Positions 12,121 to 14,750 of a DNA stretch of 64,000 nucleotides are shown one piece after another; position 1 is the first letter of the stretch, and the number at the start of each line of letters is the position of its first letter. The translations under genes and the position numbers were made by a program. The notes under the pieces were generated by a model. It saw only the letters and a program-made list of their open reading frames with translations. It had not been told where the DNA came from and did no database searches. This stretch comes from Helicobacteraceae bacterium. GTDB taxonomy: Bacteria; Campylobacterota; Campylobacteria; Campylobacterales; Sulfurimonadaceae. The stretch spans positions 1 through 64,000 of the forward strand of contig JALWGC010000009.1 in NCBI GenBank assembly GCA_027038835.1, given 5' to 3'.

Positions 12121-12732
12121 TTAGAGTTTTGTAAAATTTTCTATAATCTTCAAGCCGTTTTTATGGCTTTTTTCAGGGTGAGGCTGAATCCCCAAAACGT
12201 TTTCTTCGGCTATCGCACTTGAAAAAGCGTAACCGTAGAAGCTTTTGCCTATTTCGTTTCGCTCATCTCCCACTTGCGCATGAAAAGAGTGCACGAAGTA
12301 GAGATAATGCTCCTCATCCAAACCCTCAAAAAGGGGATGTTGTTTTGTGAACATCCTGTTCCATCCCATATGGGGTACTTTTAGCGGTGTTTCGAACTTC
12401 GAGGTATCAAAAGCGACCACTTCCCCTTCTATCAGCCCAAGCCCTTCGTGTTTTCCGAACTCTTCGCTGGAGTTGAGCAAAAGTTGCATCCCAAGACAAA
12501 TCCCCATCATGTAACGCCCGCTTTTGGCGTACTCTTTTATCGCTTCATCCATCCCGCGCTGTACTAGATGCTCCATAGCATCACCGAACGCACCGACACC
12601 CGGCAAAACCAACTTGTCGTACTCTTTGAACTTATTGGCATCTTCGACCACTTCCGCTTTTGCGCCCACTTTGTCAAACGCGTTCAAAACGCTTGCGAGG
12701 TTCCCCATGTTGTAGTTTATGATTCCTATCAT
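12121..12732 (-). CDS. hisH: Imidazole glycerol phosphate synthase glutaminase subunit
   Basis: 203 aa class I glutamine amidotransferase. It supplies ammonia to HisF in the fifth step of histidine synthesis. Nucleophile Cys79 (MGICLGMQ) and the His185/Glu187 pair (QPHPEK) complete the triad. It overlaps the PDC-domain gene by 4 bases upstream and precedes hisA. No hisF is visible, so the partner must lie elsewhere. Confidence 0.95.
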
Positions 12733-13634
12733 TGTTCATCCACTCTCAGTTTTGTAAATTTGATGTATATAGCGAGTGTCAAAAGGAGTAACGACACCCC
12801 TATCATAATGTATAACGAATAAATCAGCTTGTTCGGGTCGGTTATGGCGAACTTGAACACCAGCATCAGCGCCTCGATAGAAAGCGCTATGATGATAGAG
12901 CCTAAAAAGCGCACCATCGTTTTATGGGGACCGGAGACATTATGTTCCTTGTGGCGACCCAAAATCTCCTCTTCGACGATCGTTTTGACAAGGTCGAAAA
13001 TAGCCAAGGAGAGTGTAAGCAAAATCGTCGCTTCGAACATATCTTTTATCTTGAAATGTCCCGGTGAAATCTCCGTTACGAAATTTTGCAACGCTTTGAA
13101 AAAGAGTAAGAACGCAACTGCGAAAAGTGCGAAAGAAAACGCTCCGTAAGCGTATTTGAAAAACCTGTTCGAAAACCGATCGACAGGTGTCGGATGCGCA
13201 ACTTTTATCACCTCTTCAAACGGCATATCCAAACACGCGACATATTTGAGCTCTTCGTTCTCGTCGTAAATCGGCATCGAAACGGTAATGGTCAAATCAC
13301 CCGTAATCAATGAAGGATACGGATCGGTCAATGTACAGCGTTTCTCTTTTACCGCTCTGTAATAGTACGCTCTATCGGCTCGAATACGCCCTATATCTTC
13401 ATCTATCTGCTTCGTTTTCGTGTATGTCGGCGATATCTGCACCCCCCTATGGTCAAGCAGATACACCCCCTCACATTCATCGAGTTCCGATTTGATGCGA
13501 AGCAACTTCGGAACGATCATCTCGGGAGAAACCGAGGGGAGCCGATCTGGGATGTTTTTATGGAACAAATAGCAAAAATAGGCTCTGGCTTTCGTTCTAC
13601 TTTCCGAAAACGCTTGAATATCTGAAGGTACCAT
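12729..13634 (-). CDS. PDC sensor-domain membrane protein
   Basis: 301 aa. Residues ~20-135 look like an extracytoplasmic PDC/Cache-type ligand-binding fold (GVYLLDHRGVQISPTYT; YYYRAVKEKRCTLTDPYPS; ITVSMPIYDENEELKYVACLDM). The rest has about four membrane helices (near 160-180, 198-220, 238-262, 270-293). No kinase, GGDEF or methyl-accepting domain follows, so the output is unknown. There is no clear N-terminal membrane anchor, which is odd for a periplasmic sensor. A strong Shine-Dalgarno (GGGAGAAAGAG) supports the start. The gene overlaps hisH by 4 bases, and a MITE-like element lies 30 bases upstream. Confidence 0.75.
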   Translation of the reverse strand: MVPSDIQAFSESRTKARAYFCYLFHKNIPDRLPSVSPEMIVPKLLRIKSELDECEGVYLLDHRGVQISPTYTKTKQIDEDIGRIRADRAYYYRAVKEKRCTLTDPYPSLITGDLTITVSMPIYDENEELKYVACLDMPFEEVIKVAHPTPVDRFSNRFFKYAYGAFSFALFAVAFLLFFKALQNFVTEISPGHFKIKDMFEATILLTLSLAIFDLVKTIVEEEILGRHKEHNVSGPHKTMVRFLGSIIIALSIEALMLVFKFAITDPNKLIYSLYIMIGVSLLLLTLAIYIKFTKLRVDEQ

Positions 13635-13664
13635 CTCTTTCTCCCGTATAAATAAGTGCTATAT

Positions 13665-13935
13665 TAGACTTCTTGCAAAACTCCTAAACAGTCTCAGAGG
13701 AGCTAAAAGCAAGAGATTTTGCAAAACAAATTTTCAAGCCTAGCCGTAGCTAAGTTTGGAAATTTTTTTGTGAAATGTCGCAGACTTTTCACTTCTCCCG
13801 TAGGGCGCTAACAAGAGAGCTTTACTCTTCGTTAGATAACCTTCACCGTAGCGTTGGCTACGCTAAAGAACATCTGCCTTGATTAAAACTCTCTTGTTAG
13901 CGCTGAGACTACTTAGGAGTTTTGCAAGAAGTCTA
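13665..13935. mobile_element. MITE-like element, 271 bp, with 33-bp terminal inverted repeats
   Basis: The ends 13665-13697 and 13903-13935 are inverted copies with 31 of 33 bases identical, beginning TAGACTTCTTGCAAAAC. Inside, GCGCTAACAAGAGAG (13805-13819) and its perfect complement (13889-13903) form a second nested pair, and GTAGC/GCTAC makes a small hairpin near 13849. There is no coding capacity. TA at both outer edges could be a TA target duplication, or part of the repeat. It behaves like a non-autonomous element mobilised by a transposase encoded elsewhere. It separates the PDC gene from any upstream promoter and ends 5 bases from the ymdB stop. Confidence 0.8.
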
Positions 13936-13940
13936 TTATA

Positions 13941-14750
13941 TTATTTTTCCATAAACGCATCAGTTCTAACGACCTCGCCGCTGTCGTAGAGTTTGAGTTT
14001 GAAACCGCTTAGGGCTTTACCCTCTTTCATCTCCATCACGACACATTGCATGATCTTTTTACACTTTTTCGGCACGTCGAAATGGGCTTTCAAACCGGTC
14101 GTAAACTGCTTCAATGGCGCACTTGATTCCATCCCGATGACGTTGTCTCTGCACCCGCTCATCCCGACATCGCTAAGATAAAGCGTACCGTTTGCTATTT
14201 GCAAATCATCACTTCCGACATGGGTGTGTGTCCCCACTATGGCACTCGCTTTTCCTTGCAAAAGCATCATCATCCCGCGTTTCTCGGCACTCGCTTCTGC
14301 ATGAAAATCGATAAAAATATTTTTCACTCCATCCTCTATCAGGCGTTCCACTTCATCGTTCGCGGCTCGAAACGGGTTTTCGCACATAGGCATCCCGTAA
14401 TGTCCCATCACATTCAAAACCGCCAAGCGTTCATCCCCTACTTTAAACACCATCACACCTTTTCCGGGTACTTCTGTGGGGTAATTCAGCGGTCGCAAAA
14501 TCGGCTCGCTTTGCAAAAGCGGCAAAAGCTCCTTTTTGTCCCACGTATGGTTTCCGCCTGTCATGCAATCGACCCCGTAATCAAAAAGCTCTTTGGCGTT
14601 TTTCGGGGTCATTCCAAAACCGTGCGAGGCGTTTTCGTAGTTGGCGACGACGAAATCGATGCCGTATTGTTCTCGCAACGTTTTTAGATGGTTTTTGAGC
14701 ATTTCACGGCCGGGACGACCGACGATATCGCCTATAAAAAGTAGTTTCAT
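13941..14750 (-). CDS. YmdB-family metallophosphoesterase (TIGR00282)
   Basis: 269 aa. It has the calcineurin-like fold with IGDIVGRPGR at the N-terminus, NYENASHGFG, GGNHTWDKKE, FIDFHAEASAEK and GTHTHVGSDD, which together supply the two-metal site. Bacillus YmdB is a 2',3'-cyclic nucleotide phosphodiesterase affecting biofilm and motility decisions; Deinococcus and Mycoplasma homologues are similar. Length is standard. It stands alone between the MITE and the ars-like operon, on the same strand. Confidence 0.88.
   Translation of the reverse strand: MKLLFIGDIVGRPGREMLKNHLKTLREQYGIDFVVANYENASHGFGMTPKNAKELFDYGVDCMTGGNHTWDKKELLPLLQSEPILRPLNYPTEVPGKGVMVFKVGDERLAVLNVMGHYGMPMCENPFRAANDEVERLIEDGVKNIFIDFHAEASAEKRGMMMLLQGKASAIVGTHTHVGSDDLQIANGTLYLSDVGMSGCRDNVIGMESSAPLKQFTTGLKAHFDVPKKCKKIMQCVVMEMKEGKALSGFKLKLYDSGEVVRTDAFMEK

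Follow-up and report, generated by a model that had tools for sequence, protein, structure and literature searches.

A class A MITE with a twin-hairpin core beside ymdB in a Helicobacteraceae bacterium and a probable superfamily of such elements in Campylobacterota

The element between ymdB and a Cache-like gene

The window analysed here, a stretch of 64,000 nucleotides from a Helicobacteraceae bacterium, carries on its reverse strand ymdB (13941-14750; PF13277, 304 bits) and, downstream of it, a gene with a weakly PDC/Cache-like N-terminus (12729-13634), which according to the ORF list and Pfam is followed by ORFs resembling hisH and hisA in the same run, these two being assigned by eye. The designation of the downstream gene as a sensor gene proved weak, the dCache_1 score of 28.5 bits staying below the cut-off of 45; Cache models match the gene only under cut-off. 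Between the two genes lies a MITE with a twin-hairpin core, 30 bases from the start of the PDC/Cache-like gene and 5 bases past the ymdB stop at 13941, distances that agree with the original prediction. Its lack of coding capacity was borne out as well, no ORF of at least 80 aa, the size from which ORFs were listed, overlapping it.

Both pairs of repeats described before were recovered, the outer ones of 33 bp with 31 of 33 positions identical (13665-13697 and 13903-13935) and a perfect inner pair of 15 bp (13805-13819 and 13889-13903), but the proposed extent of 271 bp had to be shortened. Comparison of flanking copies revealed that the terminal T and A are target bases outside the element; the identical 3-bp flanks of class A insertions thus place the element proper at 13666-13934 (269 bp, + strand; repeats, flanks of copies, and full-length relatives) and identify ATT as its target duplication, at 13663-13665 on the left and 13935-13937 on the right. 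Our first reading, a 2-bp TA duplication, was replaced by the 3-bp AAT/ATT in this flank comparison. According to repeat comparison and end listing, the left terminal inverted repeat spans 13666-13697 on the + strand, closing with the junction CTCAG, and the right one 13903-13934 on the - strand, opening with CTGAG.

Inside these repeats, two large hairpins, A (13696-13797) and B (13805-13903), flank a hinge mini-hairpin CCC-GTA-GGG (13797-13805), all on the + strand; the paired columns of the hinge carry 1.7-2.0 bits each in alignment A3 (columns 3-14). Hairpin B has conserved internal loops (CTTCGTT / GCCTTGATTA), is supported by covariation and was matched at 13795-13907 by model R1, which was built from 25 hairpin B domains, with 124.4 bits, the window copy being itself part of the training set. 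Hairpin A, absent from the features originally listed, was recognised by its fold and as the mirror homologue of hairpin B, model R2 matching it on the - strand (13693-13807, 50.1 bits). Folding gave -126 kcal/mol for the + strand of the element, where shuffled sequences averaged -64.2 (z -13.3), and -133.3 for the - strand (z -13.0), and none of 200 shuffles reached the energy of either strand; the foldings bear out that a transcribed element would be predicted to form a long RNA hairpin. No Rfam family reached its gathering score on the window element, the best hits of 19.4 and 17 bits being far below.

With regard to the promoter, a -10-like hexamer, TATAGC (13658-13663, - strand), was read by eye 23 nt ahead of the start codon (ATG) of the PDC/Cache-like gene and directly adjoins the insertion, and in three congeners a TATAAT, likewise read by eye, lies 23, 23, and 26 nt ahead of the ATG. 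The idea that the element had replaced the native promoter therefore holds for the sequence upstream of the -10, whereas the -10 position was kept with its inherited spacing. Flank comparison uncovered a further hexamer, TCTAAT (13663-13668, - strand), which is formed at the junction of the element end and the target duplication, matches TATAAT at 5/6 positions and faces the PDC/Cache-like gene. This class of bacteria can manage without a -35 box. Among the 14 class A copies that have a gene start close by, TCTAAT faced the nearest start in 9, which was not significant in our tally, and a preference for facing genes was therefore dropped.

Copies, target sites, and a partner insertion sequence

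Searching the element's own genome (G000, 19 contigs) yielded 13 matches, among them one full copy and two short derivatives. The derivatives match the first 60 bases of the window element and share its closing end. They measure 65-66 bp (L002:1502-1567 on contig C6, L003:1502-1566 on contig C19), are flanked by AAT duplications and were apparently deleted between TTGCAA repeats. A palindrome of about 43 bp with class D ends only was also seen in this genome (L207:1746-1788, contig C16). A 16-mer search allowing up to three mismatches gave 35 forward and 45 reverse matches, while the reversed control gave 31 and 30, and most of these matches are background.

Within the family, 37 of 151 genomes revealed matches to the window element, including full-length copies of about 270 bp with identities down to 73-74%, and one congener (G032) had many copies. 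The PDC/Cache-like gene was retained in all three congeners searched, where only a short junction without the element separates it from ymdB, thus representing the empty site that had been suggested as a check. A single copy conserved at this exact place across distant relatives, which the original prediction had set against its own reading, was not what we found.

Identical 3-bp flanks were present in 18 of 25 distinct class A insertions, 17 of these 18 being AAT/ATT; the remaining seven insertions had no identical flanks, a point that we count against the explanation as a MITE. Shorter class A forms measured 65, 66, 182, and 256 bp. One class A copy occupies the same site in two genomes (L043 in G146, L044 in G080), where, read by eye, an upstream reading frame runs into the element end and would gain its last residues and stop codon from it. 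Signs of recent movement were displayed by class B, with six copies in G046, and by class C, with six copies in G358; in each case the copies occupied different places and five were highly identical to the sixth (97.4-98.9% and 97.5-98.2%, respectively). The plasmids and phages searched with the window element gave no match.

A full-length IS with the same ends, as had been asked for, was identified in another genus (G143). It has ends in common with the element (AGACTTCTTGCAAAACTC) and the same target choice, and the copy that could be read from end to end comprises 923 bp with ATT on both sides, its left end being one T short. Its two overlapping ORFs showed HTH_Tnp_4 and DDE_Tnp_4 above cut-off (DDE_Tnp_4 with 72.6 bits against 24.8), while the NCBIfam IS5 models stayed below theirs on these two ORFs (37.3 and 101.1 against 140), between which the protein is divided. 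A 3-bp A-N-T duplication is the rule for the ISL2 group of IS5, and the IS of G143 agrees with it in revealing A-N-T at 17 of 19 left flanks in addition to the complete ATT/ATT copy. The window element thus combines a non-coding interior and inverted ends with target duplication, scattered copies, empty sites, and the ends of a partner IS, and the proposal of a non-autonomous transposon is backed by these multiple copies, the duplication, the full-length IS, and the empty sites.

Among 18 genomes searched, DDE_Tnp_4 was encoded in two, G143 and G102. The 329-aa DDE_Tnp_4 transposase of G102 belongs to an IS present in many copies (L191, L192) whose ends are unlike those of any element class, and this IS was therefore rejected as a partner. 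No DDE_Tnp_4 gene was found in the element's own genome in the same search, so that the transposase is missing from this assembly, which we count against present-day mobility there. In G076, this left end recurs at contig ends with similar IS-like sequence behind it, and the DDE_Tnp_4 search gave nothing, which indicates that contig breaks can hide such transposase genes. No autonomous partner of class D was found at single ends in the 15 stretches read (ORFs being listed for three), where nothing but short palindromes, truncated copies, and ordinary genes lay near those ends, and for class B none was found, pairs of ends occurring only at the distance of a full element or shorter.

The twin-hairpin core under different ends and in a 16S rRNA

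The same interior was found in copies with quite different ends. The core consists of two mirror-image hairpins around a CCC-nnn-GGG hinge, and its stem sequence turns over with pairing kept while the internal loops are conserved. The alignment of 24 class A copies revealed 79 consensus pairs with compensatory change in 41. Taking hairpins of all classes together (n=70), 93.9% of cells were paired, 28 of 30 pairs showed double changes, and covariation reached 0.635 against 0.177 after shuffling and at most 0.119 with slid partners, figures that are flattered by the fitting of A3 to the model structure. In many elements, R1 gave a further match to hairpin A on the other strand, which identifies the two hairpins as mirror homologues.

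In a survey of the class, R1 matched 48 of 397 sampled genomes. These belong to several families of the order and to 15 of 68 genera; no more than nine candidates were scored per genome, so that copy counts are lower bounds. Within the genome of the window, 21 matches at E <=1 were merged by us into 11 elements with five kinds of ends, namely A (1), D (4), G (2), H (2), and I (2). The length was 262-278 bp in 52 of the 72 copies measured, the others being two with wrong pairing (L102, L161), two at contig edges (L065, L147), and 16 flank-extended ones, in which the aligned repeat ran into AT-rich flank.

Counted over 27 of the 30 pairs and leaving aside seven hairpin A rows, the stems displayed 34 G-U pairs against 30 A-C mismatches; G-U pairs being no commoner than A-C mismatches, selection for RNA over DNA pairing is not indicated. 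The gene context, assigned by a crude longest-ORF rule, was tandem for 30, divergent for 25, and convergent for 5 of 60 elements (out of 61, L050 being omitted with the gene on one side missing), and 80 of the 120 facing gene ends were 5' ends. In the tandem settings, the element was oriented with the genes in 17 cases and against them in 13, a tally without orientation bias. Neither RNA strand is singled out by the orientation or the wobble counts.

Altogether, about eleven kinds of ends accompany the core within the order, the classes A-K being assigned by eye and perhaps reflecting gradual divergence in part. When the eleven end labels were mapped onto a tree built from 68 cores, 12 changes were required, with a minimum of 10 and a shuffled mean of 41.2, so that ends and cores mostly travel together. 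Exceptions are class B, which falls inside class A, a B copy with an A-like core (L055), and a D copy that groups with G (L152); the ends of A and B are identical at 12 of 21 positions (by eye). Ends may have been exchanged between elements or may have diverged gradually. With one structured core kept under about eleven end types across the order, it is the core, rather than the ends, that defines the family. To our knowledge, descriptions of bacterial MITEs have mostly dealt with single genomes and relied on the ends.

In G198, a genome of the same order but another family, the R1 matches fall in 16S rRNA. Alignment to RF00177 revealed that 272 nt replace positions 208-214, which we take to be helix 10, as a structured insertion in all three 16S genes found (L237-L239, L241). 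The insertion of about 270 nt has both hairpins, the hinge, and a long inverted end, and it folds to the same shape as the elements (z -15.1). Model R2, built from A3 with no rRNA insertion included, matched these genes with 68.2 bits (E 3.0e-14) and the mirror hairpin with 48.2 bits. A 267-bp copy with B-like ends sits in the 23S-5S spacer of two of the three rRNA operons of this genome (L252, L254). In the tree, the 16S insertion joins this spacer copy (100/98), which forms a long branch, and the two lie within cores of other ends (98/89); the insertion shares 54% identity with its nearest relative over 201 columns. R2 matched 3 of 22 genomes of the family of G198, all of one genus. An Rfam scan of 19 further loci (L134-L152) and of L132 found no rRNA, and among 13 f8 loci scanned only the G198 copies sit in rRNA operons. 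The superfamily thus includes at least one rRNA intervening sequence, a link that rests on one genome.

Possible explanations and known relatives

The window element is very probably a class A MITE mobilised by an IS5-type transposase from elsewhere, and part of a Campylobacterota-wide superfamily with variable ends and a constant twin-hairpin core. The transposase would act in trans, recognising the element ends and inserting the element at A-N-T sites with a 3-bp duplication. The hairpins would be kept because an RNA carrying the insert folds it out and is cut by RNase III, so that insertion in transcribed DNA, even in rRNA, may be tolerated. This step is modelled on published rRNA insertions, and we infer by analogy that intergenic copies may be handled by RNase III too.

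Its strong fold, the position ahead of a gene, and the compensatory change could also befit a leader of the PDC-hisH-hisA genes that is a conserved regulatory RNA or resembles a riboswitch. However, the element is missing at the same junction in all three congeners, copies precede unrelated genes in both orientations, a target duplication is present, and Rfam gathering scores were not reached; on the basis of the empty sites and scattered contexts, we rejected this explanation, which has very little left to recommend it. The likeness of the 16S insertion could, on the other hand, be due to chance or to convergence of AT-rich hairpins, given the modest identity to its nearest relative and its occurrence in one genome only. 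Since a model without rRNA insertions nevertheless reached E 3.0e-14, the second mirror hairpin was matched as well, and hinge, approximate length, and fold shape are the same, we regard such a coincidence as improbable.

Two other explanations concern the role of the core. The stems may be a by-product of mutation, arising through template switching between the palindrome arms rather than through selection, with the core being inert filler of an ordinary MITE. The lack of strand preference among wobble pairs is consistent with this, as is the low information of the stems, which is 0.05-0.5 bits in most of helix 2 and little in most columns of the lower stem. Template switching should, however, erase the internal loops too, yet these stay unpaired and are the most conserved unpaired columns (for example 1.2-1.8 bits within GCCTTG), and the two hairpins with their hinge are retained under about eleven end types as well as in rRNA, which makes this explanation rather unlikely. 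Alternatively, the core may act as DNA, as a cruciform or protein-bound hairpin aiding several related transposases, with RNA having no part. Equal numbers of wobble pairs and A-C mismatches, the tally without orientation bias, and the near-constant length in 52 of the 72 copies would suit a function of this kind, which we consider somewhat unlikely, as the core-less derivatives of 65-66 bp also lie between target duplications, so that the core would not be strictly necessary unless they were deleted in place, and one core lies inside a transcribed 16S rRNA.

Regarded as a MITE, the window element belongs, in our judgement, to a known kind, and several systems resemble it. The Correia elements (CREE/NEMIS) of Neisseria are non-coding, with 26-bp inverted ends, a target duplication, a conserved core, and a location near genes; promoters arise at their ends, and their RNA is bound or cut by RNase III (PMC2649163). 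The window-type elements share the non-coding nature, inverted ends, target duplication, conserved core, and proximity to genes, but are about 270 bp long, while Correia elements typically measure 104-157 bp and have one end type. Membership among the Correia elements, considered for a likeness (CAAGGC...AACG), received no support from R1 or R2: on eight Correia-bearing viral contig stretches, R1 gave no match at E 10, and the best and only match of R2 was sub-threshold (13.6 bits, E 0.5); an exact 26-mer of the core was absent from the viral contigs. The R2 match (L204:208-313) falls on a Correia element, which neither demonstrates a distant relation nor speaks against one. Like MITEs of the IS5 family, the element has ends and target choice in common with an IS coding for DDE_Tnp_4; unlike an internally deleted IS, it has a large structured core that recurs under many end types. 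GTAG/CGTC REP palindromes are likewise dispersed hairpins outside genes; they are 20-40 bp long, GTAG REPs being associated with tyrosine transposases (PMC3733652). The present elements differ from them in their length of about 270 bp, their long inverted ends, and, for class A, their DDE transposase. No paper on Campylobacterota MITEs was found in our literature search, and we judge the core superfamily to be undescribed within the reach of the literature searched.

Helix 10 insertions of similar size have been reported from the 16S rRNA of several Campylobacter species, their role being given as undetermined (PMC11261738, PMC12453555), and in H. fennelliae an insertion of 355 bp has been described in the 16S and one of 271 bp with end stems in the 23S (PMC3335488). 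The insertion of G198 shares the twin-hairpin core and length of our elements, while the window copy differs from helix 10 intervening sequences in being intergenic. The origin of intervening sequences has been called unclear, one hypothesis seeing in them a remnant of transposition (PMC4990558); in the open-access literature we found no link in print between MITEs and rRNA intervening sequences. We tentatively put forward, as a possibility to be taken seriously, that the 16S and perhaps the 23S intervening sequences of Campylobacterota are insertions of this MITE superfamily and that the core serves as an RNA-processing module cut by RNase III.

For the window itself, the consequence is modest, namely a lineage-specific insertion beside the promoter of a Cache-like gene. 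Should the proposed relationship be true, a gene-less DNA transposon would, at the level of RNA, take the harm out of its insertions itself. Helix 10 insertions have been known for decades, and the shared core makes the question of their origin testable with a single covariance model.
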